Origin: Lyngbya confervoides BDU141951
GTDB taxonomy: Bacteria; Cyanobacteriota; Cyanobacteriia; Thermosynechococcales; Thermosynechococcaceae
NCBI RefSeq assembly: GCF_000817775.3
Contig: NZ_JTHE03000104.1
Span: 1 to 64,000 of the forward strand
Length of the DNA: 64,000 bases
Direction of reading: 5' to 3'
Shown here: piece after piece, positions 421 to 21,457 of the stretch
Numbering within the stretch: position 1 is the stretch's first letter
Layout of the letters: each line of letters begins with the position of its first letter
Made by a program: the position numbers and the translations under genes
Notes under the pieces: model-generated
The model's database searches: none
What the model was told of the DNA's origin: nothing
What the model saw: only the letters and a program-made list of their open reading frames with translations

Positions 421-1884
421 TTATGACAATAAATGTTCAAAATAATCTCGTTTCCTCTTAGCCCATAAATCATCAGATATTAGCCTACTATAAACCCTTA
501 GAAATGAACGCGCTTTACCAATATCTCTAAGCTGCTCAAATACAAGAACTAATCTCTTAAGTATTGCTGGATCATATGGTTTCTGACAGTTGAGCTGAAT
601 TAATATTTCTGCTGCTTCATTATACTTTGCTTGAGCACCAAGAATAGAGGCCTTTTTCAAAAGTAGCTGTGGTGTTTCCCCATCTTCAGCTAAACACCAT
701 TCAAGCATAATCTCTGCTTTATGAAGCTGTCTCGTCTCTAGATACGCTTTCAGTGCAATTCTATGCAGATCTCTCGTTGCTGGAGATTGAAAACTTAGCA
801 TTTCAGGAAATCTGTCGAGATAATTCAAGCAATCGTAATACCTTTCATCCTTGAAGGCTGCTGAAACCATTAATCGGAAAGCATTGATGTCTTTATGGTT
901 CTCAAATTCAGCACTTGCAACCAACTCAGCCTGAGTATAGTCGCCTTTTTCTAGGAGACTAATTGCTTGAGAAGACCAATCTTCATAGCGAATTCGTGGA
1001 CTCGGCACAAGTCTCACCGGATGATAATCCAGTTGTGATTGTTTCACTGATTGAAACTTATTCAAGAGCGTTTCCACGGAGTCCCAGCGCTTTTCTGGAT
1101 CAAGCTCTAAGCAACGTAGAATAAAATCCTCCAATGCTGGAGAAACAGAGGTGTTGATTTCTCTAGGACGAGGAAAGGGCGTATGGCGAATGACTTGGCT
1201 TAAGGTATCATGGGGAAGTCTGGATGTTACAAGGTGATAAAGAAGTACTCCTAGACTATACATGTCTCCTTTAAAAATTCGACCAGGATCTTTTTGTTTA
1301 TGAATTGCACCTGCAAATTCCGGTGCTGAATAGAGTACAGTTCCACCATTTTCACGGGTGCGAGTATAAATTTCTTCTGGTAGCAAACTACTTCCAAAAT
1401 CAGTCAGCTTTGCTACGTCTCCAGAAACAAGAATGTTTTGTGGTTTGATATCTCCATGAGACATTCCTAAATCGTGGAGATATTTTACTCCAGCTAATAC
1501 TTGAGCATAGAGATCAAGAACCATTTTGTAGCTGGCTGTGAATCCTTGATCCCCTTCATCCAGTAACCAAGCTAAAGTATGACTAGGAAAATACTCCATC
1601 TCAATGGCATACCATTCCCGCTCTGGCGGAACACGCCCCATCCAAAACACACTTACCACGTTTGGGTGAGCGGGCTGGTTTAATAGATGTTCACCTTCAG
1701 CCAGTTCGCTATTCCTACCGCCCTGCGCTTTTGGAATTTTGACCGCGACAATCGCATCATCTTGAAGCCTTTGCGCTTTCCAAACCCATCCATAGGAACC
1801 ATCTCCCAGGCATTCTAAGAGCTCATAGCGATCGCCCAACTTGCGATCGGCACTAGGGATAAAGTAGCGATTACGAGAACTCAT
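421..1884 (-). CDS. Serine/threonine protein kinase with C-terminal TPR-like region (MADS-like operon)
   Basis: A eukaryotic-type protein kinase of about 487 aa. The kinase motifs are in order: Gly-rich loop GDGSYGWVW (about 27-35), catalytic Lys in VAVKIP (K49), catalytic loop HGDIKPQN (143-150, with HGD replacing the usual HRD), DFG (162-164) and APE (187-189). Residues after about 300 look like helical TPR-type pairs, possibly a partner-binding or sensing region. No transmembrane segment is seen, so it is cytosolic. The ATG at 1884 is preferred because it puts the kinase fold close to the N-terminus; an in-frame ATG at 1902 would add six residues. Either start overlaps the upstream 197-aa gene. 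It is the last gene of the defence operon. Kinases are part of the described MADS locus and also occur in BREX-type systems (PglW). Its substrate is unknown. Confidence 0.85.
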   Translation of the reverse strand: MSSRNRYFIPSADRKLGDRYELLECLGDGSYGWVWKAQRLQDDAIVAVKIPKAQGGRNSELAEGEHLLNQPAHPNVVSVFWMGRVPPEREWYAIEMEYFPSHTLAWLLDEGDQGFTASYKMVLDLYAQVLAGVKYLHDLGMSHGDIKPQNILVSGDVAKLTDFGSSLLPEEIYTRTRENGGTVLYSAPEFAGAIHKQKDPGRIFKGDMYSLGVLLYHLVTSRLPHDTLSQVIRHTPFPRPREINTSVSPALEDFILRCLELDPEKRWDSVETLLNKFQSVKQSQLDYHPVRLVPSPRIRYEDWSSQAISLLEKGDYTQAELVASAEFENHKDINAFRLMVSAAFKDERYYDCLNYLDRFPEMLSFQSPATRDLHRIALKAYLETRQLHKAEIMLEWCLAEDGETPQLLLKKASILGAQAKYNEAAEILIQLNCQKPYDPAILKRLVLVFEQLRDIGKARSFLRVYSRLISDDLWAKRKRDYFEHLLS

Positions 1885-2464
1885 GAGTACCTCGCTGAAC
1901 AATCTTAACTAATCGAAGCGATTGATGGGGCGTTACTTCATTGATGAACTGAAAACAAAGCAAACGGCCTTTATGACTGCCATCAACCCTCAGTCGCTCG
2001 TTTGTCTCAAAGCCTTGCCTAATAATTTGGTGAAACCGTGAATGATTGGGGAGAGAGGCCAATCCCTCTGTCCAATAGGCCAAAACTAACCACCGAGCGA
2101 AGTCTTGCAATCGATGGTGTGCTAAAAGTAAATTTTCAACCTTTCCTTCCAGCTTTCTTTGATCAGTGATACCAGAATAGCGTTCGAACTCAGCAATCAA
2201 AACAGGAGATTGGGTTTGACGGTCGAACCAGACAGAGTCACAACGAACATCATCTCCAGTCGTCGTATATCGTCCTTGCCGAGGCACGGGGAATTCGGAA
2301 ACACTTACAAAGCCTAGCGTTTGTCCCAAATGTGTCAAAAAAGAAATACCCACGCTGTGAATCGAACAGCTGATATCAGCAATTCCCCAGTCTGTCCATA
2401 TCGGTAACATCTGTTGGACCTGATCAATATTCTGAATAGCATCGGAGATTTCACGAATTACCAC
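1871..2464 (-). CDS. 197-aa protein, possible PD-(D/E)XK-like nuclease
   Basis: The family is not recognised with confidence. The central part reads RCDSVWFD, then about ten residues, then PVLIAEFERY, followed by a K-rich helix (KLEGKVENLLLAHH). An Asp in a strand followed by E-x-E in the next strand is reminiscent of restriction-endonuclease-like folds, so it may be a nuclease or an inactive relative. The GTG start at 2464 overlaps the end of the HerA gene by 14 bp, and its 3' end overlaps the kinase start, so it is translationally coupled to both. No signal peptide or membrane segment. Nuclease function is inference from the motif and the defence setting. Confidence 0.6.
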   Translation of the reverse strand: MVIREISDAIQNIDQVQQMLPIWTDWGIADISCSIHSVGISFLTHLGQTLGFVSVSEFPVPRQGRYTTTGDDVRCDSVWFDRQTQSPVLIAEFERYSGITDQRKLEGKVENLLLAHHRLQDFARWLVLAYWTEGLASLPNHSRFHQIIRQGFETNERLRVDGSHKGRLLCFQFINEVTPHQSLRLVKIVQRGTHEFS

Positions 2465-4145
2465 TCGTAAACCTCCCCCATACTTTCAAGACTTCCGGTG
2501 ACTGCCCTCCATGCAGGAGCGCTTTAGTTCCGACTTTCACTAGCAAAGGGGCTGGGATAGAACGTCCACAAATGAGCGCTTCTCCAGTCGAGAGGCTGGG
2601 CAATTCATCAATGTCTGCTTTACTCACCATATCGGAAGTCTTAGTGATAAATCGCTGATCATCCGGGTTTTTAAGGCGCATCGTGATGAGGGTATTACAT
2701 TGGGAAGTGACATCAGAATCTAATTTAGAAGGGCGTTGGCTCACCACCGCAAAACCAACCCCAAATTTACGTCCTTCACCGGCAATTTTTTTGATGATGC
2801 GGTGACTCACAGACGGTTGTCCTGCAGGCGCAAAATTATGCCCTTCTTCATAAACTAAAAAGCAGGGACGAATTGGGTCTGTTTTACTGGATGCTGCTCT
2901 TAAAATTTCACTGGAGATCAACGCCGTAACAACTTGCTTTGCGGTATCACTGAGCCCTTGCAAATCAACTACAACCAATCGGCCTCGTTTATCGCTAGGG
3001 CGTCCTATCATTTCATAGATATCGGTTGATTTGGCCAGTGCCGCAGAGTAAAAACTCTGGGCTTCATTCAGGACTCGCGAGAGTTTGAGAGAAGCCACGG
3101 CAGCACTCCGACCATTCAGAGCTGACGATTCGGCTTGGCTCAGTTCATCCCATTCCTTCAAGTCTTCCAGTCCGTCCCCCAAATAGTAACGAAGTAAATT
3201 GATATCTCGAGGATCGTTCTTTTCCATTAATCGCCAGTATCGAATGGCAACATCTAGAACCCTTTGCTGAGGCTCTGTTAATCCTGGTAGAATCTCACCG
3301 ATGTCATCCATCTCAAATCGATCAAATTGTAAAGCTAGTTCCCGATTTTTGCCAGCATATTTATCTCGAAATGACTGTTGTTGGGGGGTGTAAACTTCCA
3401 ATCCTGCCCCAGCCTCAGTGAGTCGTTTAAAGCTTGCCTGAATTTCCTGAATAGCCTGCTGATCTCGAGCATCCTCATTAGCGTTGTCTTGCCAGTTGAA
3501 CTGTAGCTGCCCTCCTTGAAAGGCTCGCCCATATTCCCCATGGGGATCAAAGACAACAACAGAGCCGTTATTCAGCGCCACTAATCGTTCGATAATCCTG
3601 CCGACGGTATAGGATTTACCTGAACCCGTCATAGCCAGAACAGCTAGGTGTTCCGTCACGAGACGGTTCACATCCAGATAGACTGGAACGGTGTTTTCAC
3701 CATGCTCGTAGCCCACTAAATTACCAATGTGCAAGCTGGTCTGCTCGTCAAACTCGTAAAACTGGCTGAGAAAGTAGTAGTCAACTGTTTCTACCTTGGC
3801 TCCAGGATCAAGGGCTCGCCGAGGAATTTTAATTTGTCCTGTAGTCAGATCTTTGTAGCCAATCAGCTCTAATTTGGCCATGACCTTTTCGCCTGTGACT
3901 TGAGCCCCTGGCAGCAGCTCCAAGTCATTCACGGATTGCCCCATTTCGGAGTTATACAGCACGTTAGAGCGCGTCACACTAACAATGCGACCCAAAACAT
4001 CGGTCTCGGGCTCATCGATGCTTTCTTTATGCCGGATGCGGACAAACTCACCTCGTCTTCCTGCAAAGGATGAGGAGAGCACCATAGTGAGATTATTAGG
4101 ATCCCCGGTGTTGCCGACTAGCTTGCCCAGTATTTGCGGTTTCAT
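2451..4145 (-). CDS. herA: HerA-type hexameric ATPase/translocase (DUF87)
   Basis: A 564-aa HerA/FtsK-superfamily ATPase. The N-terminal region of about 150 residues is a HAS-barrel-like beta domain. Walker A is MTGSGKSY (172-179), and the preceding HLAVLAMTG is typical of DUF87. Walker B is FLVYEEGHNF (about 426), where the paired Glu residues and following His are HerA hallmarks. A later VVSQRPSKLD segment resembles the HerA sensor/arginine region. HerA proteins pump duplex DNA and work with NurA nucleases; a NurA-like protein is encoded 5 bp upstream. Variants of this pair occur in archaeal end resection and in many bacterial defence systems. Cytosolic, DNA-bound role inferred. The ATPase assignment is firm; the defence role rests on context. 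Confidence 0.88.
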   Translation of the reverse strand: MKPQILGKLVGNTGDPNNLTMVLSSSFAGRRGEFVRIRHKESIDEPETDVLGRIVSVTRSNVLYNSEMGQSVNDLELLPGAQVTGEKVMAKLELIGYKDLTTGQIKIPRRALDPGAKVETVDYYFLSQFYEFDEQTSLHIGNLVGYEHGENTVPVYLDVNRLVTEHLAVLAMTGSGKSYTVGRIIERLVALNNGSVVVFDPHGEYGRAFQGGQLQFNWQDNANEDARDQQAIQEIQASFKRLTEAGAGLEVYTPQQQSFRDKYAGKNRELALQFDRFEMDDIGEILPGLTEPQQRVLDVAIRYWRLMEKNDPRDINLLRYYLGDGLEDLKEWDELSQAESSALNGRSAAVASLKLSRVLNEAQSFYSAALAKSTDIYEMIGRPSDKRGRLVVVDLQGLSDTAKQVVTALISSEILRAASSKTDPIRPCFLVYEEGHNFAPAGQPSVSHRIIKKIAGEGRKFGVGFAVVSQRPSKLDSDVTSQCNTLITMRLKNPDDQRFITKTSDMVSKADIDELPSLSTGEALICGRSIPAPLLVKVGTKALLHGGQSPEVLKVWGRFTSGNS

Positions 4146-4150
4146 GCTTG

Positions 4151-5308
4151 TTACTCCTCATCCAAACCGGATAACCAAATATCTTCGACTTCTCGCTGTT
4201 TTAGGGCTTCTACAATGCTTCTGCTGTAATAGTCCAAAAAATTGCTCAGTCCTTTTTGTTCCCGTGCGGCTAACTGAATCGGTAATGGCATTGCATCCTG
4301 TCCTCCTACCACCATCAGAGCCATGACTTGGCCACAAACACGATCTAGTAATGCCGTGTTCCAATCGGGTGCATTTCCAATTAACTGCATCAATCGGGGG
4401 GCTGTATTTTGTCCCGCTCGAAAGTGTAAGCCGAGCACCCCTAGATCAACAACATCACTAGGCTCCATACGGGGTGTCTGAATATTCATCTGAAAGGCGA
4501 CCGTACGGGTATAGCTGCCCACAATGCCATAAACAAAACGTCGCTCACCAATCCCTGCCATAGAATGGGAGATATCATCGAGTTGTTTAAGTCGATCTTG
4601 ATCAACTCGTTCAGTCGGTAAAATTTGTTGGTGCCCGACGGTCGTCCGTAAGTCTTGCTGGGCTACTTGAACAATTGCGCCATAGCGCTTTGAGGTGAGC
4701 CCTAAAACAGCTGTACCTTGAGGATTCCAAGGGATCAATTTATGGCGATGGGCTTTCCAGAATGCTGAGATAGTTTGAAAGGTTTGTTCAAAAGAATCCC
4801 CAAACTCTCCACTTCGCGCTGATCGTTGGGGAACCATACTGCGCTCAAGGGTAAGCGGACAATCCAGCAAAATCAGGTTATAGGGTTCGCCAGACTTCAA
4901 GGCTGCATCTGCTATCTCATAAGCTTGTCTAATGCCAATTAACTGTAGCCGCTTGGACTGGTCTTCAAAGTTAATGTCATCTAGTTCACAGGTACTGTCT
5001 TGACCCGTTGTAGATACAGCATTATTGTCGATCGCAACATCTAACCGAGAGGCTACCGAAACGTAGAGATATCCTCCTAGTGTTTTTTTCACCGAGGACT
5101 GGGTTGAAATCCCTGCAACTCTGAGATTGAGAGGGTTCGGTCGATCCACGGCTCGAACTAATCCTGCCTCTGCAAAGAGCGGTGCAATTTGCTCAATGCT
5201 GCGAATTTGGCTCAAGATTCGCCCTACCGTCCCCGGCAGATGAATCTGGGATTGAATAGCTAAAGACTGGGCTACGGAACGGCCTTGAGGCTGAAATGTT
5301 TTTGTCAT
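4151..5308 (-). CDS. NurA-like protein, HerA partner
   Basis: 385 aa. Weak but ordered resemblance to the NurA domain: an early strand with VAGIST in place of the usual DGS, a middle strand LILLDCPL that could be the second metal-binding motif, and a C-terminal block (PLPIQLAAREQKGLSNF) like the conserved 'P-x-l-x-lA' end. The first acidic residue (Asp of DGS) appears to be replaced, so nuclease activity is doubtful. The stop codon of the upstream gene overlaps its ATG (ATGA), and HerA starts 5 bp after its stop. That gene order is the main reason for the NurA call. It may be a structural partner of HerA rather than an active nuclease. Confidence 0.6.
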   Translation of the reverse strand: MTKTFQPQGRSVAQSLAIQSQIHLPGTVGRILSQIRSIEQIAPLFAEAGLVRAVDRPNPLNLRVAGISTQSSVKKTLGGYLYVSVASRLDVAIDNNAVSTTGQDSTCELDDINFEDQSKRLQLIGIRQAYEIADAALKSGEPYNLILLDCPLTLERSMVPQRSARSGEFGDSFEQTFQTISAFWKAHRHKLIPWNPQGTAVLGLTSKRYGAIVQVAQQDLRTTVGHQQILPTERVDQDRLKQLDDISHSMAGIGERRFVYGIVGSYTRTVAFQMNIQTPRMEPSDVVDLGVLGLHFRAGQNTAPRLMQLIGNAPDWNTALLDRVCGQVMALMVVGGQDAMPLPIQLAAREQKGLSNFLDYYSRSIVEALKQREVEDIWLSGLDEE

Positions 5309-6159
5309 AGGGATAGTGCCTCCAGTTCTTCAGCGTAGGGTGCATATTGACTTTGCCGGAGAAATTGGCGTCCAGCGTCTGTTAAATTTCCAGCACTCAC
5401 CAGACCATGCGTCTCTAGATCGTCGAGACAATGAGCTGCCTGAGAGAAATCAAGGGAAAAGATGGTCGAGTGCAGAAGGGCTTCCAGAGCTTCTATATCA
5501 GAGTTGAAATCTGCTGTTAGGAGATGAAGCAAGAGCGTGAAATGATCAACAGAAGGCGAAAAATCAGGGATCTCAGGTTCAGATTGCTTCGTCCAGTTAG
5601 AATTGCCAACGATATGAAATAAGCTGTCTAACCACTGATGAAGTGCTGATTCCCAATCTAAAATCAGCAAGGACCAAAGGGGTAGGCACGTGATCGCAAA
5701 GATACCCGAATGGGGATGCTTCCGGTAATAGGCGGTACAGAGGCTTTGATCATCCCAGGTGCCGCCTGCTGGATGGGCAATTTGCAAATCACCTCGTAGC
5801 TGATATTGCATCTCTGATGCTAAAGCATTGAGGAAAACGTCCTGTTTAGCAGTCACTGGATCCTGTCGGCGCTTCACTGTCCATGAAGTCGGCAATAAAC
5901 AATCCATAGACTTGAAAGGGGGAATCAGCAGTAGCACTCGTCCAGGTTCTTGAGACCAAGCTATCCAGGCTCGTTGTGTTTCTTCTGAGGCTTTCTGAAA
6001 GTCAGAACCAAAGAGTAGACAGATGCCGCTCCCAACGGGCATACCCTCTGCCGGTTGAGCGTGAACAACCGTCTTAAGAATTCGTCCACGACGGTGATGA
6101 GCCAGGGACTCACCCAGCCAAACTTGATATTGGGCAACTGGATTTGTTGAATTGTCCAC
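5305..6159 (-). CDS. Uncharacterised 284-aa protein of the defence operon
   Basis: Not recognised. GTG at 6159 is chosen as start because a strong GGGAGGT Shine-Dalgarno lies 7-8 nt before it and it begins one base after the ATPase stop codon. An in-frame upstream ATG at 6204 would overlap the ATPase gene. The protein is acidic and Trp/Leu-rich. The first half has alternating strands (GICLLFGSD, RVLLLIPPF). The C-terminal 80 residues are helical and end with an arrangement (LDDLETHGLVSAGNLTDAGRQFL) that looks like a winged-helix. It may therefore be a small adaptor or DNA-binding subunit. The 3' end overlaps the NurA-like start by 4 bp, so the two are made together. Confidence 0.7.
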   Translation of the reverse strand: MDNSTNPVAQYQVWLGESLAHHRRGRILKTVVHAQPAEGMPVGSGICLLFGSDFQKASEETQRAWIAWSQEPGRVLLLIPPFKSMDCLLPTSWTVKRRQDPVTAKQDVFLNALASEMQYQLRGDLQIAHPAGGTWDDQSLCTAYYRKHPHSGIFAITCLPLWSLLILDWESALHQWLDSLFHIVGNSNWTKQSEPEIPDFSPSVDHFTLLLHLLTADFNSDIEALEALLHSTIFSLDFSQAAHCLDDLETHGLVSAGNLTDAGRQFLRQSQYAPYAEELEALSL

Positions 6160-6160
6160 C

Positions 6161-9100
6161 TTACTGACCTCCCAACCGATACGTTCGCACCAGGAGACCG
6201 GCACGAATCAATTGTTCTTCTTCCTGAGGCTCGAGGGCAGGATCTGCTCCTTGCTCAATCGCTGCCACGATGCGCTGCCATCGGCCAAAGCTAACAGCCT
6301 CTGGTAAAAGTTCATGTGCTTCTTGAACCCAATCGTGCCGTCGAGCTTCGAGTTTAGCGATCGCCGCCCTTAAGCTATCGGCTTGTTCTAGCTCCAAGCG
6401 ACTTAACGGAGGTCGAGGCGGTTGCCCTTTAGCCTTCAGCAGTTGGTTAAAGCTGGTTTCAATTAACTGGATATCAGACTGATTGACCAGCCCGCCAATA
6501 TAACCACCAATCGCATTGTCAAGTGTTAAGAGCTGGGTTCTGAGCTGATTAAGCTGTTGTCGGGGAGCATTTAATAATGAGTCTGCCGCCTTCATTAGAG
6601 GCTGAAAATTTCCTTGCTTGGCAGGCCGGTCGTAGAGTGGATCGTCTCTGAGTGTGTCTACCTCATCTTCTTGGATAGCGGCTAGGCTGTCTTCAATGAA
6701 GCTGGGCCTGAGCTGCAATTGCTCAAAACGGTCAATACCAGGAGGATAGGAAAAATCCTCTGGCGCATCCTCTAATAGCTTTTCCAGCTTATTTAAGCGA
6801 GATTTAGCCTCCTCCAGTTGGCCTTGCAGGTTTTCAAAGGCTTGCTTGAATCGGCGAAAGCCGCTAACGATTTGGCCGTCAATGTCTTCAAAGGGCACAT
6901 CTATGATGCTGGCACCTTCAATACTCAGGCCTACCTCTCGGCTCAACTGCGTTAGCCGATTCATAGCATCCGCAACCCGCAGTCCTTTCAAGCATTGACC
7001 TAAGGCGCTCGCATCGGTCATTTGTTGTTGTGCGGTACTGCCCAGGGGTGTTTTTTCCCGAATGGCCCCTTCTAAAATGTGGCGAATCTTTTCCAAGGAA
7101 AGGGTGAAGAGCTGAGTGGGAAAATGGGACAGGCCAGCTGCCTCTGCATGCATCTTGGGTTGCAGATGATCGATCTGTCGGATAATTTCATCGCGAATCC
7201 TGAGGATGCGATCAGCAAATAATTCCGCTCTACGAATACGACGCCACAATGAATCTTTGTCGTTGCGTAGTTCCAGGGTTCTGACGTTTTCCTCAATCAA
7301 CAATCCATAAGCATCTTGGTTGTAGACATTTTCAATGGCTGCCATCAGCTCTAGACGTTGCTGGGAAAATTCGAGGAGCCGCGATCGCTTTTGGGATAAA
7401 TCTAGGGTGTCAGTGTAGTTGCCTTCCTCAGCGCTCAATCGGCGATAGCATTCCTTAGCCCGTTGGATGTTGGATCGAGCCTTTACAGTTTCAGTACCCT
7501 CCAATGCTCCAAAGAGATCATTGATGGCACCTTCGCCAAAGACCTCCTGAATTTTGAGGACAATGTTGGGATACTCATCCGTTAGCCAGTTTTCAGCCGC
7601 TTGGATACGACTATTTAGGGTCGAGAGTTGGAGAAAATTAAATCCTTCAGTTGGGCTAGAAACAGCAAACCCCAGATCGACTGTCAGACTCAGCCAATCA
7701 TTAAAGGTGTCTTTAGGCTTAGCGCCTTCCCAGGTATAGCCCCAGAACCAGGTCTGTTTAGCCAAGTCTTCCGTCCAAGTGGGCTTTTTTTCTGCAACAA
7801 AACGGTCCAACACTCTGACTAAAAAGGGTGGAATTTCTGCCTTGTCGTTACTCTCGTGACCGGAGAAAAGCGTGGCCCGTTCTTCATGGGAATAGCCTGC
7901 TGCCCGAATACTCCGGGATAAACCCAATTTTTCTAAGACGGCTGTAATCGCCTCAATGTTTAGGCCGCTACTTTCATCGATTTGATATAGCGAATGTTCC
8001 GAGGTTTTCAGTAACAGGTATTTCCAGGCTTGCCTGAGAAGTTCTTTCTCGTCTGCCTTCAAGGAACCACTCGGTCGCAATGGCCAAGCGATCCAGCCTC
8101 GCTGATTGAGGCTGTGTCGCCATCGCTGAACCTCTTCAAGCAGTCCCCGTTGAAAGGCGTTAATCCGCTGGGTAAAGGTCGTATTGAAGTTGGCAATCTC
8201 AATTTGAAAGCCCTGCTGATCTTGCCCTCGAAGACCTACTCGATGCAGGACATACTCTTCATTGGCTGAGAGTTGATATAGCAATAGATAGGCTTGGGCG
8301 GCTTTTAACTTCGAAGCAGCCGGATTTTTCAAACGATCTACCAATGCTCGCGATGATGTGAATGCAATGACCGGAGTTTTCCCTTCCACACCGTTTTGCC
8401 GACTGACGGCCTCACACAGACTTTCCAGTTCCGGCTCGTTTTGTACCCAGACGAGAATGGCTCGTCCCTTAGGATGGAGCTTCAAAGCGTCACAGGTCGC
8501 CAGCCCCCCTTGATCCCGTCCTCGGCTACCCCGTGGTGTGGCGATCGCCACAAAGTCTCCGGTAAAGCCAGGGGAAACGGGGTCATAGCCCCAGTTTTGA
8601 TCCAGTACTCGCATCATGCCGGTGAGCACTTCACGGGCTCGTTCGTGGGCAGGCTGCTGTTTGCGATCGCTCATCGCCTGTTCATGGGCGCTGCTCTGAT
8701 CCGGATCGCGGAAAATTAACGACGTCTGGCTCCGTTTGCGATAGCGCAGATCGAGCCGTTCCAGCATGGCAATGCTAGGGCCAATGTGGGTTGCCGTGTC
8801 CTCTGAAATATCCGTGGCCCCGAGGAAGTATTGCCATAGGGCACGGGCGGCATCTTCGGCTGAGGGATGGGGATAGAGGAAGCTGACTAACTCAATAAAG
8901 TCTGACTGGTGTAAGGGCACGAGTAGAATGCGCTTGCCATCGGCAGTACGGTTGAATGACCCATCGGTTTCTTCATTTTGATGGGCATAGATGGCATAGG
9001 TGCTGAGGTTGTCCAAAAGCTGACGCAAGTCGAGGAACTGAGAGGTCCCTGCCAGTTGCCAGCCCTCGGGTTTACGCTCAAACTTAGCGGCCCGTAATGC

Positions 9101-11771: not shown

Positions 11772-11782
11772 AGGAGGAAGTC

Positions 11783-12763: not shown

Positions 12764-12784
12764 GGCAGTTGGCCTCACAAGCAG

Positions 12785-13174
12785 TTAGGGATACGGGAGC
12801 AGATTAAGCGTTTTAATAAAGCGGAAGTCTCGCTGATTTTTACTGATGAGTGATAGGTTTCGCTGGATTGCGGTGGCGGCGATGAGTGCATCCGGCATCA
12901 GCAGACCATGACTCAGGCGATATCGTTCGATTAACCTGATCGCCTCTTTAGAAATTGATTCGCTGAGATGAACAATTTCAAAAGGTTGCAAAAATCCTTT
13001 CAACTGTCGTTGTTCTTTACGGTTACGCGCTCCAGCTAGAAGTTCGATGACCGTAATGGCACTAATCGCGAGGCTGGATTGTGTTTCTTCAGCCTCAATA
13101 AAGTTAGCTGCTTCCTCAATGCCGTGACCAAAGTCAATTAACACATCAGTGTCAACCAAAATATGGCTACTCAT
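12785..13174 (-). CDS. vapC: PIN-domain toxin, VapC-like ribonuclease
   Basis: 129 aa. PIN-domain acidic residues are in place: D8/D10 in LVDTDVLID, E44 in TVIELLAGA, D95 in LMPDALIAA and D116 in NQRDFRFI. VapC toxins cleave tRNA or rRNA in the cytosol and are held by a co-expressed antitoxin. The upstream 83-aa gene overlaps its start by 8 bp, the usual coupling for such pairs. It is part of the cargo block inside the defence operon, where a toxin/antitoxin pair could stabilise the island. Confidence 0.85.
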   Translation of the reverse strand: MSSHILVDTDVLIDFGHGIEEAANFIEAEETQSSLAISAITVIELLAGARNRKEQRQLKGFLQPFEIVHLSESISKEAIRLIERYRLSHGLLMPDALIAATAIQRNLSLISKNQRDFRFIKTLNLLPYP

Positions 13175-13418
13175 AGTTTCTCTCCCACTCCGTGCGGCGG
13201 AGATTTCGTACCCACTCCGTGCTATCTTTCATATCTTCGCGATCTTTCCACATGCCAAAGAAAGGATGCTTTTTCCAATCAACCGCCTTGGGCTTGGCAG
13301 GGGAGCTTGCTATTTCAGGGCTTTCTATTTCTTTCAGGCGTTGTTCAAACAGTTGCCTTTCCTCAAGGGGGAGGGAAAGAATGGTTTGAATTAGGGATTC
13401 AACAAGCTGGGTATTCAT
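13167..13418 (-). CDS. Antitoxin partner of the PIN toxin
   Basis: 83 aa, with an N-terminal helical part (LVESLIQTILSLPLEERQLFEQRLKE) and a polar C-terminus containing HPFFGMWKDREDM, a motif often seen in cyanobacterial antitoxins paired with PIN toxins. Its stop lies 8 bp inside the toxin gene. Likely binds and neutralises the toxin and may repress the pair. Function is assigned from gene pairing and the motif. Confidence 0.7.
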   Translation of the reverse strand: MNTQLVESLIQTILSLPLEERQLFEQRLKEIESPEIASSPAKPKAVDWKKHPFFGMWKDREDMKDSTEWVRNLRRTEWERNYE

Positions 13419-13466
13419 AGGGATCTCCTCAGGGATTCATACGCGAACACAAATCAATGCAGCGAT

Positions 13467-15164
13467 TCATCCCGGCACCTCCTCGGTGGATGCATAGGCA
13501 TCTAGGGTGGCTTCGCTGGCAAGGGGAATGGATGAACGGGTTAAGGGATAAACCTTGGCAGCCTGACCGTTGCCAGAATCGGCGGTGTCAAGGTCCTGGT
13601 TAGCGTCCAGATTGGCGAGGGCGGTGTAGAGGGCATCTAGGTCGGGGAAGAGGGGTGGCTCGTTGGAATAGTCGATGCCTTTGCGGGTGAGGCGAGCCAG
13701 GATAGCCCGGTCGAGGGTAGAGTCGCCCTGTTCTAACCCTTCCTGAGCTGCTTTCAGATCTGCTTCGCTGAGTTTGCCTTCGATCAGGGCTTCAACGAGG
13801 AGTTTTGCGGCAATGATGAGCTTGTAGGATAGAGCCTTAAATAAAAGTCGTTGCTGCCTTAATGTGGAGATCTCTTCTTGAAAGTCCTTTGGAGCAACCA
13901 CAATCAAGTTACTACCTGTCTCCGTAAGATTCATATTTAGCTGAACAGCACCATTAGCAATTCGATTACTCTGGATTTTGCCAATTTCAGTATTGAGAAA
14001 TTCAGCTAAATAGTGAGGTAATATCTCGTCTTTGCAGTCGATGGTGACAACTGCTGCATTTAAACTGGCTTCTTCAAAGTCCTCAGACTCAAAAACCGCA
14101 GCTCTTCCAATGGTTCCACGTACTGACAAAAGAACACTGCCTTTTGCTGCTCGATGCCGTATAAGTTCTTTATGTTTTTTAGGAGAGATGAAGACACAGT
14201 CTGATAAATCACATTCTCCGTCTATTAAATTAACAGCCCGGACAACTGGGATCCCATAGTTCACATAGTCTCCGGTTGACACTCCCCAGCCACCGGGACC
14301 ATCTTTAATGCGATGAGTTAGTTGAGAAAGTGGTTGATATTTCCAAGGAGTTCCCTTGATTTCTTCATCAGCCCAAAGTACAAGTGGCGTGTAAAACTCC
14401 GACTCTAAACGATTCCCTGTTAATTTATTGGAAGGAACCTTACTGAACTTATTTTGTGGTGGCTTCGGCTTTCCTCGAAAGCACTTTTGCATTTTATCCC
14501 GGAGTTCTAGCCATACCTTTTGAGATCGCTCCCTCAACCGCTCCGCCAGCCGCACCTTATTCCCAATGTACGCCTGAACTTTAGCATCAGGTATTGGCAA
14601 CTCTAGATTTAACAGGTCATCGGGAGCCAAGAACTCAACATTTGTGTTTGTTCTTAATCTAGAACGTGCAATGGCGGCATAAGGACATGATAGTGCTGTG
14701 ACTAAATATTGAGGATCTATCTTTTCTATACGAACTAAAGCCCCCCAAATAGTTCCACTAACTAGAACTCGTTTACTTGGCTCGTTTGAATTATAAGCAG
14801 TGACTTGATTTGGCCCCTTTACCTTGACCAAAATCTCATTTTCTCTCAATTCTCCCTTAGGATACTTATCGGCAAATTCAGGCGATACCCGTCTTCTTGA
14901 ATTGAGATCTATGAAAAAACCGTCAGCCCCAAAATCATCCGCCGTCAAAAAGGGCACCCAGGTATTATCTGCCTCTTCAGCCTCTAAGGTCTGAGTACTG
15001 AAATAAATCGCCCTTCGACCCTCTTTGACAAAAACTTTGAGAGGCAGAATATCGACATTTGATTGAAGGAGACGATCCTCATTTGAGAGAAAAGATGGAT
15101 GATAATAAACTGCGTCTAATCGATTTTTAAGTCGATCGGCCTCTAACCACGTAATGCTTGCCAT
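13467..15164 (-). CDS. Type I restriction specificity subunit (HsdS-like)
   Basis: 565 aa. It has two target-recognition-like halves. The first ends in a helical spacer (VQAYIGNKVRLAERLRERSQKVW, about 195-220). The second ends in EISTLRQQRLLFKALSYKLIIAAKLLVEALIEGKLSEADL. The blocks LELPIPDAKVQAYIG and GTIGRAAVF are typical of HsdS. It would give DNA sequence specificity to the methylase encoded upstream. Its start codon overlaps the TAA of a relic methylase 3' end (TAATG), which shows that the original neighbour was a methylase. The last 100 residues extend beyond the normal HsdS length and are low in conserved features. Confidence 0.85.
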   Translation of the reverse strand: MASITWLEADRLKNRLDAVYYHPSFLSNEDRLLQSNVDILPLKVFVKEGRRAIYFSTQTLEAEEADNTWVPFLTADDFGADGFFIDLNSRRRVSPEFADKYPKGELRENEILVKVKGPNQVTAYNSNEPSKRVLVSGTIWGALVRIEKIDPQYLVTALSCPYAAIARSRLRTNTNVEFLAPDDLLNLELPIPDAKVQAYIGNKVRLAERLRERSQKVWLELRDKMQKCFRGKPKPPQNKFSKVPSNKLTGNRLESEFYTPLVLWADEEIKGTPWKYQPLSQLTHRIKDGPGGWGVSTGDYVNYGIPVVRAVNLIDGECDLSDCVFISPKKHKELIRHRAAKGSVLLSVRGTIGRAAVFESEDFEEASLNAAVVTIDCKDEILPHYLAEFLNTEIGKIQSNRIANGAVQLNMNLTETGSNLIVVAPKDFQEEISTLRQQRLLFKALSYKLIIAAKLLVEALIEGKLSEADLKAAQEGLEQGDSTLDRAILARLTRKGIDYSNEPPLFPDLDALYTALANLDANQDLDTADSGNGQAAKVYPLTRSSIPLASEATLDAYASTEEVPG

Positions 15165-15205
15165 TACTCCCCCCTCACATAAGCCCCAACAATCGCCGCT
15201 AAATC
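15164..15205 (-). pseudogene. Relic of a second DNA methylase 3' end (13 codons plus stop)
   Basis: On the minus strand this segment reads DLAAIVGAYVRGE-stop, identical in protein to the C-terminus of the full methylase ending at 16815. Seven of the 13 codons differ, all synonymously. Its TAA overlaps the ATG of the HsdS-like gene. It is therefore the tail of a diverged, once functional methylase that directly preceded the HsdS-like gene. Upstream of the DLAA block the similarity stops. Confidence 0.8.
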
Positions 15206-15219
15206 AATTACACAATGGC

Positions 15220-15588
15220 TCATAGCTCTACCCCCTGCTGCTCAATCACCTCCCGCAGCCTCGGCTTGGCGTGTTCCATCTGCACCACATCCACCGCAAA
15301 CGCCGACAAATCCAGCAGTTGAGCCACCGCCTCCAGGTAGCGGTCATCTGCTAACCCCGCCACCGCTAAATCAATATCCAACTCTAGCCGCACCCGCCGC
15401 GCCTCCAGCATGGAGCCAAACAGCCACACCTGCTGCACCCCAAACTCCTGCTTCAACACCCGCGCTGCCTGCCGTGCCACCTGCCACCCTTGCCGCTGCC
15501 GTTGAACCTGCTGCTGGGCATGGGCGGTCTGTCGCCGCTGCGCCGTAGCACGATACTGCGCCAATTCGGTATGCGAAAGCTCAACCAT
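15220..15588 (-). CDS. MNT-type nucleotidyltransferase domain protein
   Basis: 122 aa. The nucleotidyltransferase signature is VWLFGSM followed about ten residues later by the acidic pair D-I-D in LELDIDLAVAG. This is the minimal nucleotidyltransferase (MNT) pattern seen in MNT-HEPN toxin/antitoxin pairs, where MNT AMPylates the HEPN toxin. No HEPN partner is adjacent. The N-terminal 40 residues are Gln/Arg-rich and helical. It overlaps the upstream duplicate gene by 8 bp. It belongs to the cargo block between methylase and specificity genes. Confidence 0.75.
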   Translation of the reverse strand: MVELSHTELAQYRATAQRRQTAHAQQQVQRQRQGWQVARQAARVLKQEFGVQQVWLFGSMLEARRVRLELDIDLAVAGLADDRYLEAVAQLLDLSAFAVDVVQMEHAKPRLREVIEQQGVEL

Positions 15589-15859
15589 CCCCCTCCTCCA
15601 CCGGAAACCGTTCCAACAACTCCTGCCGCGACAAATTCACCAGCAGGGGCATATACTCCTCAGGCGACAGCTTCAAAATGGCTGGCAATCGCACTGCTAA
15701 GGCTTCATCCAGTATTCCAAATCTTGCCTTCAGCAGGTTTTCTACAACCTGCCGTTGCCCCCGTTGAAGCCCTTCTTCTAGCGTGGCTTCGCGCCATTCC
15801 AAATAAGCCGTCGATAAGTTCATAAACACCTCTCGGTCATCCTCACTGCCCCGCCTCAT
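15581..15859 (-). pseudogene. Tandem duplicate of the 3' end of the Rpn-like gene
   Basis: A 92-codon open frame that repeats residues about 217-315 of the adjacent Rpn-like protein (DDREVFMNLSTAYLEWREATLEEG... to LLERFPVE). At DNA level 15601 onward matches 15872 onward with an offset of 271 bp, and the distal ends match with an offset of 331 bp. The 60-bp difference equals five 12-bp GLQQ units missing here. It lacks the N-terminal catalytic part, so it is probably non-functional, though still open. Confidence 0.75.
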
Positions 15860-16814
15860 TGCTTGTTTCCACCGGAAACCGTTCCAACAACTCCTGCCGC
15901 GACAAATTCACCAGCAGGGGCATATATTCCTCCGGCGACAGTTTCACGATTGCTGGCACCCGTGCTGCTAATTCTTCATCAAGTTCGCCAAACCGAGCCT
16001 TCAGCAAATTCGCCACAGTTTCTTGTCGCTCCTGCTGAAGCCCCTGTTGAAGCCCCTGTTGAAGCCCCTGCTGAAGCCCCTGCTGAAGCCCCTGCCGTTG
16101 CCCCTCTTCCAGGGTGGCTTCGCGCCATTCCAAATAGGCGGTCGATAAGTTCATAAACACCTCCCGGTCATCTTCATCTAGATCTTGGCTTGTTTCTAAG
16201 GTCAATCGCCAGTTAATCAGCAACTCTAAAGAACTGGCCCGAAACGGGGAATCCCTGGGTAACGTCACCAATTCTGCAATGGCGCGGCGTTGGGTTTCGC
16301 CCTTGCCCAAAATGCGTAACCACAGGGTTTCTGGTACCTCCGGCAACTGGTTAATCGCCACGATCGCCGTCCGTAACCAGCGAGGCAGTTGATACACCCC
16401 GGCAATCCACTCGGTTTCATCCACCTGGCCCCCAAACCCCTGCACCAGCGCCTCCGAGGCCGTAGTCGCCAGCACCCAGAGATAGGGCAGCGTGGCTTCC
16501 TCAGACCGTTCCCCCCCTCGCCGCGCCTTGCGCTGACTGTCGGCCTGCACCAAAAACAACTTCAGCAAACAACTGCGAATATCCGTTGGGGTGGGTGCAT
16601 TGCGATACGGTTCCAGCAGGCAGGGAGTTTGAGCCATTCGTCCCAGCAGTCCCAGGGCATTGGGTTCCCTCTGGGGCGAATCATCCGGTGCAAACCACAC
16701 ATCCACCTGGCGCGACTCGCCTAATACTTCCAACCCTACCCGCACCTCACCCACCGAGGTCAGCAGTTCCTCTAGATATTGCTTGGCAAACTGATCATGG
16801 GGAAATCGCGTCAT
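15843..16814 (-). CDS. Rpn-like / DUF4351-type PD-(D/E)XK family protein
   Basis: 323 aa. The N-terminus (MTRFPHDQFAKQYLEELL ... RQVDVWFAP) matches the large cyanobacterial family related to Rpn recombination-promoting nucleases and DUF4351 proteins. The C-terminus ends in a charged helix with the (GLQQ)5 repeat, then NLLKARFGELDEEL, also family-typical. Members are often mobile and multicopy. It starts directly after the methylase stop (TAG-ATG abutting). It is cargo rather than core and has spawned the tandem 3' duplicate downstream. Confidence 0.75.
   Translation of the reverse strand: MTRFPHDQFAKQYLEELLTSVGEVRVGLEVLGESRQVDVWFAPDDSPQREPNALGLLGRMAQTPCLLEPYRNAPTPTDIRSCLLKLFLVQADSQRKARRGGERSEEATLPYLWVLATTASEALVQGFGGQVDETEWIAGVYQLPRWLRTAIVAINQLPEVPETLWLRILGKGETQRRAIAELVTLPRDSPFRASSLELLINWRLTLETSQDLDEDDREVFMNLSTAYLEWREATLEEGQRQGLQQGLQQGLQQGLQQGLQQERQETVANLLKARFGELDEELAARVPAIVKLSPEEYMPLLVNLSRQELLERFPVETSNEAGQ
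16032..16091. repeat. Five 12-bp tandem repeats coding for GLQQ
   Basis: Five units of CTG(C/T)TGAAGCCC lie head to tail inside the Rpn-like gene and encode (GLQQ)5 on the minus strand. The shorter tandem copy downstream lacks them, so the array has expanded or contracted since the duplication. Confidence 0.9.
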
Positions 16815-18866
16815 CTATTCACCTCGCACATAGGCTCCCACGATCGCCGCTAAATCATTCGACACCCCTGTGCTGTAATCCTCCACATTGTTCTTCACCA
16901 CATAGCCCAGCGTATCCGCCACCGCCATAAACACCGAACCTTGCGGCTCATCCTGAAACGTCTCCGGATCATCTTGCCGCGCTTTCCGCTTCTGCAAATA
17001 CAAAATGCTCGTCTTCGCTCCCGTCCCCGACAGCTTGAACGTATCCGACGGCAAACTAATCACTGCCTTCACGATCGCCTTACCACCATGAAACTGCCCA
17101 GTGGTTTCATCCTTCTTGCCCATGATGTACTCCCGCACATAGCGGTCTCCAGAGTTGCACAGCACCCCATCCGGCACCACAATCAGCAGCCGTCCACCGG
17201 GCTTCAGCAATTGCAGGCAACGGTCAATAAACAACACCGCCGGGTCAATGCTGGTGGGCTTTACGGGCTTCCAAACCCCCTTGCTATCCGGCTTCGCTCC
17301 CATGGCCCGACCGGAGACCGATGGCTCATAGTCATAGGCCTCCCGCTTGCCGTCTCGTTCCTGCAAATCCGATCGAAACTCCGCCAGGATGCGCTCCTTA
17401 GCTTCCTCATAGGCTTTTTTCGCCTTCACCTGACTCTTGCTAAACTTGGGCGTACCAAAGGGCGGATTCGTACAAATCAAATCAAAGGAACAGGGCTGGA
17501 GTTGGGGGCTGACCAGCGAATCCTCGGTGTAGAAAATCTTGGCCTTGGGGGCTCCCAACATCGCCATATTCACCCGCGCTAGGGTGATCATCGTCGGAGC
17601 CGAGTCTGCTCCTACAAAACTGTGCTCACACATTTCCTGGAATAGGTCGCTACGACGAGCATCCGGGGCGGTTTCCTTACCCAAAATTTCCATCAAAGCC
17701 CGTTCCAGGTGTCCCATCGCCACCACCCCAAAGCCATAGCTACCGCAGGCCGGGTCACAGAATCGGAACAGCGGCAACCCCTGCGCATCCCGCGCACTCA
17801 AGAGTTCCGGCGTTTCCGTCTTGATGTCATGAAAGGCGATCGACAACATGGCCTGTTTCACCGGGGCTGGGGTCAGGTAAACCCCCAAGCCTCCCTTAGA
17901 CTCAAAATTGCCTCGGAGGAAAACGTCGAACACCCTGCCCAAGACATCTCCGGCAATATGAGACAGCGTCCCCTTGGCGTCTACAATTTTGGGCTTGTCT
18001 GCTCGATGGGAATTATGGGTGACTGGCCCCAAGTTCTGAATCAAATCCAACAGGGTTTCGTAATTCTGAGGACGGGCCAGCAACAGGTGGGTTTGCTCAT
18101 CAAAGATGGCATGGGCATCTCCAGCATCCGTGGTCACCACATAATCGGGATGGGACTTGAAATGATCAAACGCCGCCTGGATTTGCTTAACCGCTTCGTC
18201 CTGGTGCTCTTGCACGTAGCTTACTGTGAAGACCTGATCCAACTGTAAGGTTTGATTCTTGTAGGGAAACTCTAGGGCTGAAGGATCGTGATTGAGGCGA
18301 AATGACTCTAGATAAAGGATCTTCGCCACTTCCAAAATAATGTCGTTCTTACTCGACACCCGATCCTTCACGTTTTGGTAGACCTGCTCATGAAAGGCAT
18401 CAAAGCCTCGCATCAAACGGTCGTACATTCTCAGCGACCATTTATAGGTGGGGTCTGCCTTGATCCGCTTGTACTCGTTAATTTCCTGAATCGTCGGTAG
18501 CCGATCAATTTCTTCCGGCAAAGACGACGCTGAAATATCAAAGAAAGACGTGTGCTCTCCATCAATGACAACACCAAACTGAGGGTATTGATCTTCTGGG
18601 GTATCGGGAGGCGTTAAGTCCCAGGATGCAGCCTGCACTTCGTTGGCATTCGCCTTATCCCACTGCCCCGGCCCCAACGCCCAGACAAAAATGCGCGGAG
18701 TGGCAATTCCCTGATGGCTGCCCCAGGCGATCGCTGCCGCCTGATCAGGCTCACTGACCTCCAAGGGCTCAATGCGATCGAACTGCTGTGCCTTCAGCTT
18801 CTTCAAATAGGGCTCAAGCACCGATTCCTGTAGCGGGATCTCAATTTTGTCTGCCGTCTTTGCCAT
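16815..18866 (-). CDS. N6-adenine DNA methyltransferase (HsdM-like)
   Basis: 683 aa, larger than a typical HsdM. The SAM-binding motif I is FCDPACGSYGFG (about 370) and the catalytic motif IV is NPPF (about 467), the gamma-class N6-adenine arrangement. The N-terminal 250 residues include an HsdM-like helical region. It would modify host DNA at the site chosen by the specificity proteins, protecting self from the nuclease arm. The small 125-aa gene lies 23 bp upstream. Its own C-terminus (DLAAIVGAYVRGE) recurs as a relic at 15164-15205. It is the methylase of the MADS-like operon. Confidence 0.9.
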   Translation of the reverse strand: MAKTADKIEIPLQESVLEPYLKKLKAQQFDRIEPLEVSEPDQAAAIAWGSHQGIATPRIFVWALGPGQWDKANANEVQAASWDLTPPDTPEDQYPQFGVVIDGEHTSFFDISASSLPEEIDRLPTIQEINEYKRIKADPTYKWSLRMYDRLMRGFDAFHEQVYQNVKDRVSSKNDIILEVAKILYLESFRLNHDPSALEFPYKNQTLQLDQVFTVSYVQEHQDEAVKQIQAAFDHFKSHPDYVVTTDAGDAHAIFDEQTHLLLARPQNYETLLDLIQNLGPVTHNSHRADKPKIVDAKGTLSHIAGDVLGRVFDVFLRGNFESKGGLGVYLTPAPVKQAMLSIAFHDIKTETPELLSARDAQGLPLFRFCDPACGSYGFGVVAMGHLERALMEILGKETAPDARRSDLFQEMCEHSFVGADSAPTMITLARVNMAMLGAPKAKIFYTEDSLVSPQLQPCSFDLICTNPPFGTPKFSKSQVKAKKAYEEAKERILAEFRSDLQERDGKREAYDYEPSVSGRAMGAKPDSKGVWKPVKPTSIDPAVLFIDRCLQLLKPGGRLLIVVPDGVLCNSGDRYVREYIMGKKDETTGQFHGGKAIVKAVISLPSDTFKLSGTGAKTSILYLQKRKARQDDPETFQDEPQGSVFMAVADTLGYVVKNNVEDYSTGVSNDLAAIVGAYVRGE

Positions 18867-18889
18867 TTCAGTTCACCTTCCTATCAAAA

Positions 18890-19267
18890 TTACTTCAGCC
18901 GCAGCAGTCCTGGCCCAAATAGCTCTAGCTCACGACTCGTCTTTACCAACGCCTTAATCTGCGCCTCGCTGGTGGTAAATTGCCCCGGCAATAGCCGTAA
19001 TACCTGCGCCGCCGGGATAGGCTTGCCCCCTCGGGATTTCACCACATTTACCACCGCTTCCAACAGTGCTTCCTGAGGCGACTTAGCTCCCAATCGCACC
19101 TGCCCTTCAGCGGTGAGGTCTACCCCCGCCATACAGGTGAGAAAGAGCTGGAGCTGATCGACCGACCAATCACTGCCCAGTTCCTGAATTAACTCGTGCA
19201 ACTGAGATAGGGATTGGGGCGAGCGGGTCAGTTGGACTGTGACATCCTGATAAATATCTGGCGTCAT
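18890..19267 (-). CDS. Small protein of the defence operon (125 aa)
   Basis: Not recognised. Helical N-terminus (SLSQLHELIQELGSDWSVDQLQLFLTCM) and a C-terminal part (PIPAAQVLRLLPGQFTTSEAQIKALVKTSRELELFGPGLLRL) whose helix-turn-helix-strand spacing resembles a winged-helix. Its ATG overlaps the stop of the upstream specificity-like gene by 4 bp and the methylase begins 23 bp after it, so it is probably an accessory subunit of the methylase complex. Confidence 0.7.
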   Translation of the reverse strand: MTPDIYQDVTVQLTRSPQSLSQLHELIQELGSDWSVDQLQLFLTCMAGVDLTAEGQVRLGAKSPQEALLEAVVNVVKSRGGKPIPAAQVLRLLPGQFTTSEAQIKALVKTSRELELFGPGLLRLK

Positions 19268-20733
19268 GAGGGGTCTCCTGGCGAAGCGATCGCCCGATGG
19301 ATGGGATTACGGTCTTTGGAGAATGCATGAACCTCATCAAATAACTGCTGGGTTTCCTGCCAGAGCCCTTCCCACTTCTGGTGCAGTTCGCGCTTGCGCT
19401 GGTGATGGGTCAATACCACCTGCTCCCAGGCTCGGCGCTGCTCCAGAGGAACCGGCGGCAGCAGTAACTTTTGCAGGCGATCGGCGTAAATAAACTGCTG
19501 TACCGTGCCCATAGCCAGACCCTCTAGCTGCTCTCGGATCGGCTGCGAGTTCAACACTAAGGCCCAGCCCGCTGGGGTATCAGGGAACCGCAAGCGCTCC
19601 CAGTGGTCCGTGGCATAGATGGTCTCCTCTAGCCCACTATCCACAAACACCACCCTGGAATTGGCTGCAAAGGTCGAAAGTAAAACTTCGCCCGACCCTA
19701 AGGGTTGCTTAAAAACCCGCGTTGCCTGGGTCACAGGGGCAGGCTGGACGTGATCGACCATTAAGTCTTGCCCCACATCCCCCAGCCTCAGATAAGGGAT
19801 ATCTTCGGAGGTTTGATTGAGCCGTTCCCGGCTCACCCCAAAATTCTGGCTGATCTGGTTGAGCGATCGCCACTGGAGTTGTCGGCGTAGCTGTCGTCGC
19901 CAATAGGCATTCTCTACATGGTTGGGCAATAAAGAATCTTCAATCGCCTCTGCCGGAAGGAACCGACCGGTACCCAAATCTGAACGATTGAACGATCCTT
20001 CAGCCTCTAGTGTCTGAAGATTAGTTTGGATGGATGCTTCCACCCCCTCCATGCAGCGCATCATCAGCTCTTCGATTTCCAGCAACGCATCATTCAAACT
20101 CCAGAAGGTTTCTCCTAACCGCCGCATAGCTTCGGGTGGGGGCGGTAGCCGCAACTGTCGCAGTTCTCGCAGGCTCACTCGCGGTAAGAAAGCCTGTCCC
20201 TGATGCTGAGTTAAGTAGGCTTCGTAGGGTGCTTGATTGAGGCAGAAAGCCACCCAAGCACTGGTGACCCGATTTAGCCCTCGCACTAATAAACAGTTCG
20301 CATCTACCGGATGGCGATAGGTGCGATCGGTCACCAATACGGCTCGCATCGGGACTAACTTGTTAAGCACCACATCCCCCGGCTGCACACACCACGCTTC
20401 CGACGCCACTTTCACACTGGGCGACTGCCAATGTTCAGCCTCTAAACTGAAACGCATGGGCTCCAGATTTCCCTGGCGGTAAAGGGGTGTGTGCTCCACG
20501 CGATCGTCGTAGTCTGAGGCCTCTGGGTTCGTGCTGACTCGCCACCCCTCAAAGCAATGCCCCCCCAACTCTTTTAAGGTCTTGCGTAGCCCCTGACCCA
20601 AGAGGATCTGGGCGGCTGGGCCACAATATAGATCGGCACCCCATACCGCCTCCTGCTCCAACAGAGTTGGAGGAATTTGCTTGACCCGAGGGCCATCGAG
20701 TTTGGATACGGTAGAGTGCATGGTTGTCATCAT
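19264..20733 (-). CDS. Second specificity-like protein (divergent HsdS)
   Basis: 489 aa. Weak HsdS similarity in two places: LRELRQLRLPPPPEAMRRLGETFWSLNDALLEIEELM in the first half and LQKLLLPPVPLEQRRAWEQVVLTHHQRKRELHQKWEGL near the end. These are the 'lplPp-l-eQ' plus helix blocks that close each HsdS target-recognition domain. GDVVLNKL and SGEVLLSTF also fit the fold. With the 565-aa protein this gives two specificity-type subunits for one methylase. The start is at 20733, or 20721 if the later Met is used. It follows the nuclease gene by 64 bp. Confidence 0.7.
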   Translation of the reverse strand: MMTTMHSTVSKLDGPRVKQIPPTLLEQEAVWGADLYCGPAAQILLGQGLRKTLKELGGHCFEGWRVSTNPEASDYDDRVEHTPLYRQGNLEPMRFSLEAEHWQSPSVKVASEAWCVQPGDVVLNKLVPMRAVLVTDRTYRHPVDANCLLVRGLNRVTSAWVAFCLNQAPYEAYLTQHQGQAFLPRVSLRELRQLRLPPPPEAMRRLGETFWSLNDALLEIEELMMRCMEGVEASIQTNLQTLEAEGSFNRSDLGTGRFLPAEAIEDSLLPNHVENAYWRRQLRRQLQWRSLNQISQNFGVSRERLNQTSEDIPYLRLGDVGQDLMVDHVQPAPVTQATRVFKQPLGSGEVLLSTFAANSRVVFVDSGLEETIYATDHWERLRFPDTPAGWALVLNSQPIREQLEGLAMGTVQQFIYADRLQKLLLPPVPLEQRRAWEQVVLTHHQRKRELHQKWEGLWQETQQLFDEVHAFSKDRNPIHRAIASPGDPS

Positions 20734-20797
20734 CCTGAAAATAGAGGTTGGGCCTCAGCCCCGGCAGCATGGCTGGGACTGAGGCTCGACTTGACGA

Positions 20798-21457
20798 TTA
20801 CAGCCAAGCCACCATTTCCCGAGCCTCCGGTGCTTCGGTCTGGGCAAATGGGCAGATTTCCCGACACTTGCAAAAGCGACATTCACTCAGGCTCGGTTGG
20901 GGATCGGGAGCATTTTCCTGGGCCACGACTTGCATCAGCCCCCGCACTGACTGCTTGAAGGACTCGTCTACCTCAGTAGGAGGAGTCAGCTTGTCCTCAC
21001 CACTACGGTAAACCAAGCGCCCCCAGGGAACTTCCTGAATTCCGTGCAGCTTTTGAGCCGGAATTAACGCCTGGTAGAGGTTGATCTGAGCCCGGTCTTT
21101 GCCTCGCGGCTTGCCCGTTTTCACGTCAACTACCAGGCCTTGTCCGTTGCGGGCAACGATATCGGGCTTGCCTGCCAGGGTTACCCCCGCAGAGGTCTTC
21201 AAATATAAGCTGTTGGCATCTTCTTCCTCGACGTCGTAGCCGTCTTCCCGCAGGTCGTAGGCCACTTCATTGAGCAAGCTTTGATGCTGTACCAGCCAGT
21301 CAGAGGGCATATCGTTAGTGGAGGGAACTCGAAAATTACCCTGGTTCCACAAACTAAATTTGCACTGACTCTCCCCAGAGAGATACGGAGCGAGCCAGGT
21401 CACCCAGACATAGGGGCTAGGGCGTTTTTCTAAACCCAGTGGATTAGTTGAATCCAT
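20798..21457 (-). CDS. Cas4-like Fe-S PD-(D/E)XK nuclease, first gene of the operon
   Basis: 219 aa. Catalytic motifs: GKPDI (D99), VDVK (D111, K113) and a QxxxY motif (Q124-Y128), as in Cas4/RecB-type nucleases. One cysteine near the N-terminus (C32) and a C-terminal cluster CRFCKCREIC would hold a 4Fe-4S cluster, as in Cas4 and AddB. No cas1/cas2 or CRISPR repeat is nearby, so it is a defence nuclease rather than an adaptation protein. A perfect 14-bp palindrome lies 18 bp upstream of its ATG. Confidence 0.8.
   Translation of the reverse strand: MDSTNPLGLEKRPSPYVWVTWLAPYLSGESQCKFSLWNQGNFRVPSTNDMPSDWLVQHQSLLNEVAYDLREDGYDVEEEDANSLYLKTSAGVTLAGKPDIVARNGQGLVVDVKTGKPRGKDRAQINLYQALIPAQKLHGIQEVPWGRLVYRSGEDKLTPPTEVDESFKQSVRGLMQVVAQENAPDPQPSLSECRFCKCREICPFAQTEAPEAREMVAWL

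Follow-up and report, generated by a model that had tools for sequence, protein, structure and literature searches.

A conserved operon of Lyngbya confervoides and distant bacteria combines type I-like methylation genes with a HerA-based module: a candidate defence system outside MADS

What kind of system is encoded by the intact, tightly packed gene array on the minus strand of a 64,000-nucleotide stretch of Lyngbya confervoides BDU141951 DNA (the window), at positions 421–21457, which an original prediction had assigned to MADS or a close variant with about 12 core genes? All of the predicted open reading frames were present at their minus-strand positions. In the direction of transcription they run from a Cas4/RecB-like gene through S1, U125, M, a DUF4351 gene with its partial duplicate, a minimal nucleotidyltransferase gene and S2 to an antitoxin-like 83-aa ORF, a PIN gene, a DUF4058 gene, U408, a large ATPase gene, U299, U385, HerA, U197 and a kinase gene, with start/stop overlaps, also anticipated, at five junctions (S1/U125, ATPase/U299, U299/U385, HerA/U197 and U197/kinase). 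Profile matches bore out the families that had been named, namely a Cas4/RecB-family nuclease (20798–21457, PDDEXK_1 E 3.4e-11), an N6-adenine methyltransferase of the type I M subfamily (M, 16815–18866, N6_Mtase E 7.4e-23), the hexameric DNA translocase HerA (2451–4145, DUF87 E 1.2e-43 together with a HAS-barrel) and a Ser/Thr kinase with an N-terminal catalytic domain and a TPR-like C-terminus (421–1902, Pkinase E 2.7e-36). None of U125, U408, U299, U385 and U197 had a match above cut-off in Pfam or NCBIfam.

Relatives of the array were collected by a scan of genome contigs seeded with the 1442-aa ATPase, which recovered 45 loci from cyanobacteria (Calothrix, Xenococcus, Nodosilinea), planctomycetes, acidobacteria, Verrucomicrobia (Chthoniobacter), several classes of proteobacteria and Clostridia. 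Once genes had been called and assigned by profile, nearly all of these loci proved to share the order S1-U125-M-S2-U408-ATPase-U299-U385-HerA-U197-kinase, and its recurrence in phyla so far apart shows that the genes did not come together by chance. Each of the 37 loci with enough upstream flank has one or more S-like genes upstream; where the upstream side is intact, U408 (10545–11771) is found in 36 of 37 loci and U125 in 35 of 37, and U299 is found in 40 of the 42 with an intact downstream side. An optional 351-aa gene, X351, sits directly upstream of the ATPase gene in 17 loci. Two further loci carrying both halves of the system, L099 and L100, were found in IMG/VR viral contigs with U385 as the seed; the DNA of these contigs begins inside M, so that they cover the system from M onward, with S1 and U125 outside, and the two copies may have a proviral or mobile-element context. 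U385 is single-copy within 18 host genomes. No match to U385 or the ATPase was found in a plasmid collection, and none to U385 in a phage collection. Of 386 cyanobacterial genomes, only that of Lyngbya itself has the ATPase, and the same is true of U385 and of this M subfamily, which marks the system as rare. A patchy distribution of this sort is typical of defence genes, and some loci have defence-type neighbours (PsyrT-like, NsnA/NERD-like and MkoA-domain proteins).

The array as a whole is thus real, but its predicted core has to be trimmed. The Cas4-like gene has a homologue in just one other locus (L012) and was rejected as a core component, being classed as a recurrent accessory. The inserts at 15220–16814 (the DUF4351 protein, its 92-aa partial duplicate and the minimal nucleotidyltransferase) and at 12014–13418 (the antitoxin-like ORF, the PIN toxin and the DUF4058 gene) were likewise set aside as passengers, because PIN, DUF4351, the nucleotidyltransferase and DUF4058 are missing in relatives save for independent PIN inserts, which lie at different points in L017, L028 and L033. 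These last three loci are gammaproteobacterial, and in each a 313-aa candidate WYL-domain regulator (of BrxR/CapW type, recognised by eye) stands directly before the operon, upstream of U125. In four other loci (L013, L015, L025 and L026), the place that the Cas4-like gene takes in cyanobacteria is held by a protein of ~900 aa that has a RecB-like PD-(D/E)XK C-terminus and is divergent from S1. The gap between S2 and U408 is a recurrent cargo site; two candidates resembling DUF1016/YhcG nucleases, 30% identical to each other, lie there (L002:7613-8782 and L042:6848-7879). Within the Lyngbya insert between M and S2, the DUF4351 region (15843–16814 and 15581–15859) contains in-frame tandem repeats of GLQQ type at 16031–16105 and a partial duplicate of its tail, and adjoins the minimal nucleotidyltransferase gene. 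Elsewhere in the window, an IsrR antisense RNA (Rfam RF01419, 108.8 bits) lies at 34266–34443 on the plus strand, opposite an ORF at 33808–35211, as fits a cyanobacterial host, and four tandem copies of AGTTTTCCACAG occupy 45661–45707, similar to DnaA-box-like TTTTCCACA motifs.

Do the genes form one system, or two independent neighbours, namely a type I-like methylase, acting as an orphan or to mark the host, beside an abortive or repair module of HerA, NurA and kinase that is blind to methylation? The original prediction had allowed that its two halves might never co-occur in other genomes. All nine non-S core families, and with them both halves in fixed order, were found together in 34 of the 36 loci with full flanks on both sides, a count whose value as a test of independence is limited by the use of the ATPase as seed. 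Pairwise identities of M track those of the ATPase (Spearman 0.92), U408 (0.90), the kinase (0.90), HerA (0.89) and U385 (0.89) closely, and those of S2 (0.72) and S1 (0.61) less so; the pairs are not independent, and the correlations are descriptive. In addition, this M subfamily was never found without the rest of the system among the 386 cyanobacteria, and the halves were never seen apart in that sample. The one locus that speaks for two separate systems is the outlier L045, represented by one draft contig, which keeps M, S-like genes, the ATPase and U385 and lacks HerA, U197 and the kinase; at L045:14907-20001, an S-like gene and then a 738-aa SF2 helicase, recognised by eye, come after U385. 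This arrangement suggests a system that keeps its sensing and marking half but can exchange the motor module. We consider two independent neighbours distinctly improbable; from the sequence comparisons, the marking and effector halves of a single system appear to be inherited together.

Membership in MADS was not upheld. It is true that PADLOC models mad6, mad8, mad5 and mad2 match the kinase, HerA, S2 and M, and that the NCBIfam models for MAD2 and MAD6 match as well, but the curated cut-offs were missed widely: M scored 119 bits against MAD2 (cut-off 720) and the kinase 120 bits against MAD6 (cut-off 460). Two reference MADS loci (L058 and L059), fetched with the MAD6 model at 730 and 726 bits, carry a different gene set, in which a methyltransferase is followed by genes for proteins of 449 aa and 235 aa, an S protein, a 1383-aa PglW-like kinase and proteins of 557 aa and 1871 aa. 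In profile comparisons with these proteins by hhalign, the kinase domain (99.7%), the methyltransferase (99.8%) and the P-loop of HerA (88%) were recovered and all others stayed below 3%, although the MADS alignments hold two to three sequences and are of limited sensitivity; the S proteins, compared by BLAST only, showed generic S-type similarity. U125, U408, the ATPase, U299, U385 and U197, along with the optional X351, had no MADS counterpart by BLAST or hhalign. The two systems thus have in common an N6-methyltransferase, a type I-like S subunit, a Ser/Thr kinase domain, a HerA-class P-loop and a compact operon. They differ in that the Lyngbya-type kinase is small with a TPR-like tail whereas MAD6 is PglW-like, and in that the Lyngbya-type HerA is canonical with a HAS-barrel whereas MAD8 is a giant of 1771–1871 aa. 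That the array is MADS or a close variant of it is therefore, to us, scarcely credible; what survives of the original prediction is a methylation-based, probably anti-phage, multi-gene system in which a methyltransferase and S-type proteins are accompanied by a large ATPase, a kinase, HerA and a protein of NurA fold.

The same prediction had seen no BREX, DISARM or type I restriction genes (PglZ/BrxL, DrmA/B, HsdR), and the PADLOC and Pfam matches of the array agree with this. They include no PglZ, BrxC, BrxL, BrxA/B, GNAT or TGT; no array gene had a PADLOC Drm match (DrmA helicase, DrmB with DUF1998, DrmC); and HsdR was absent from the array, whose conserved core genes match no helicase family at all. 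The combination of a large ATPase, an N6-methyltransferase and HerA is nevertheless a theme of BREX-related and HerA/FtsK capture systems (PMC12839542, PMC10853773), which raises the possibility that a BREX system, a BREX-related one (DUF499/Hma) or a BREX-related-capture system has diverged in its components. Against this, the gene sets described for those systems do not fit the array (PMC12839542, PMC10853773). BREX-related capture systems (PMC12839542) share with it a HerA alongside a large ATPase and winged-helix proteins, but have PglZ, DUF6079, DUF4007, GNAT and TGT, of which none was found in the array. The ATPase itself (6161–10489) is a P-loop NTPase with a long helical C-terminal part, in which the Walker A (GxGKS) and Walker B (DExE) motifs are invariant across 27 members; its KAP/AAA-like signal is weak, with a weak KAP_NTPase match in 15 of the 27. 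Neither DUF499 nor DUF6079 Pfam models matched any of these 27 members, and a relation to BrxC was rejected at a profile probability of 0.3%, measured against a shallow BrxC alignment. Matches of the ATPase to haemagglutinin HA2 in the PDB were dismissed as coiled-coil artefacts. No recognisable relative was found for most of the ATPase or most of U299 (5305–6204), which has weak evidence of a C-terminal winged helix (wHTH E 0.019), and U408 had no Pfam or PDB relative. A BREX or BREX-related system with diverged components we regard as very unlikely.

The modification half resembles type I restriction-modification. An HsdM-type methyltransferase is present in M, which scores 827 bits (E 2.7e-249) against PADLOC MTase_I and whose motif residues, NPPF included, are invariant among relatives. 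The firmest result of the analysis concerns S2. In five clostridial and two Legionella systems, most other genes are 85–99% identical, but S2 (13467–15164) is just 28–39% identical, and S1 (19264–20733), an S-like protein with weak Specificity_I matches that is core in most lineages, stays at 89–97%; U125 is 69% identical in the Legionella pair. The variation within S2 falls in two domains of ~25% and ~17% identity around a spacer that is 94% identical, followed by a constant tail, indicating a type I S subunit with two exchangeable target-recognition domains. Judged by these alignments, S2 behaves as a genuine specificity subunit of type I: in systems otherwise near-identical, it alone diverges, by as much as 70%. 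The second target-recognition domain of the Lyngbya protein (approximately 13845–14327) is ~66–80% identical to its counterpart in Legionella bononiensis (L026), against ~20% for the first, which points to exchange of target-recognition domains across phyla, between a cyanobacterium and Legionella. As hypervariability is limited to S2, S2 alone should set the methylated motif and S1 should not. U125 (18890–19267) carries a possible C-terminal winged helix like those of HARE and RNAP delta (weak, E 0.03 to RNAP delta). Type I HsdMSR systems have the M subfamily in common with the array, as well as an S subunit whose two target-recognition domains are hypervariable; the array lacks HsdR and has an extra S-like protein and eight more conserved genes.

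The proposed effector half includes HerA, U385, U197 and the kinase. HerA is the most conserved protein of the system (mean pairwise identity 72%), and among solved structures it is closest to HerA from the HerA-NurA complex of T. kodakarensis (E 8.9e-58); HerA structures of defence type match less well (E 6.6e-42 to 8e-22). A NurA fold adjoins it: for the AF2 model of U385 (4151–5308, 385 aa; pLDDT 85), each of the ten best PDB fold matches was to NurA or to a HerA-NurA complex (best E 9.3e-11). This assignment rests on fold, as sequence profiles miss the relation: a cyanobacterial NurA profile gave no significant match to U385, and PDB sequence profiles gave none for U385, U197 or U408. One reading of this pair is that U385 is the active nuclease and U197 a structural or DNA-binding subunit, the whole being a HerA-NurA machine for end resection that was co-opted for restriction. 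The NurA fold, a HerA of HerA-NurA type and the conserved residues E108, D110, D149 and H295 are in its favour. However, the position of the motif-I Asp, located by sequence alignment and predicted strands, holds Asp in 1 of 32 U385 sequences; with this residue missing from the other 31, U385 is possibly a non-catalytic or altered NurA, and its active site is, from the alignment, probably degenerate. In U197 (1871–2464), by comparison, a putative catalytic set, E57, D76, E92-x-E94, R95 and K108, is invariant in 31 of 31 sequences, in an E-D-ExE arrangement that we take to recall BamHI. Its AF2 model is of high confidence (pLDDT 94.9), and the top Foldseek matches were restriction-endonuclease-like folds, all weak (best E 2.9e-3, TM ~0.3). 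An active U385 accordingly seems unlikely to us, and we favour U197 as the candidate DNA nuclease of the system. The catalytic residues of the kinase are all invariant in 26 relatives.

The array also departs from other systems built on these parts. It shares with the HerA-NurA end-resection complex a HerA nearest to the archaeal protein and a NurA-fold neighbour, but its version lacks the motif-I Asp in U385 and is linked to a separate protein of restriction-endonuclease fold as well as to genes for a methylase, S proteins and a kinase. With SIR2-HerA/Nezha and HerA-DUF4297 it has in common a HerA hexamer, here a putative defence motor; it has neither a SIR2 nor a DUF4297 partner, and a methylation module is added. 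No 11-gene system of this kind, with HerA, kinase, M and S, was found described in the open-access papers searched or in PADLOC (2023).

From these sequence and model data, we think it fairly probable that the array encodes a restriction-modification-like defence system against invaders, presumably acting on phages; a purely epigenetic or regulatory role may be an alternative. In the mechanism that we propose, M and S2, probably with S1 and U125, would methylate adenine, the two target-recognition domains of S2 determining the motif. Together with U408 and U299, the large NTPase would probably form a sensor or assembly platform for unmethylated target sites on incoming DNA, and would then load HerA as a hexamer that bears U385, its NurA-fold partner. 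HerA-U385 would pump DNA and U197 would cut it, while the kinase, which is translated last and overlaps U197, would probably switch the effector on or off by phosphorylating a component.

On balance, we lean towards a distinct, hitherto unnamed defence system, widespread but rare, that unites type I-style methylation and a swappable S subunit with an effector of HerA, NurA-fold and REase-fold proteins under kinase control. Because defence-finding libraries report its fragments as pieces of type I RM or MADS, the system is probably mis-annotated in many genomes. The model predicts that the motif is set by S2 alone, that cutting is done by U197 and that the kinase provides gating. If it is correct, the operon would represent a new multi-gene, methylation-gated immunity whose restriction engine resembles neither HsdR nor PglZ nor DISARM, and would show how the DNA-repair motor HerA-NurA can be put to use in restriction, with a protein kinase as part of the circuit.
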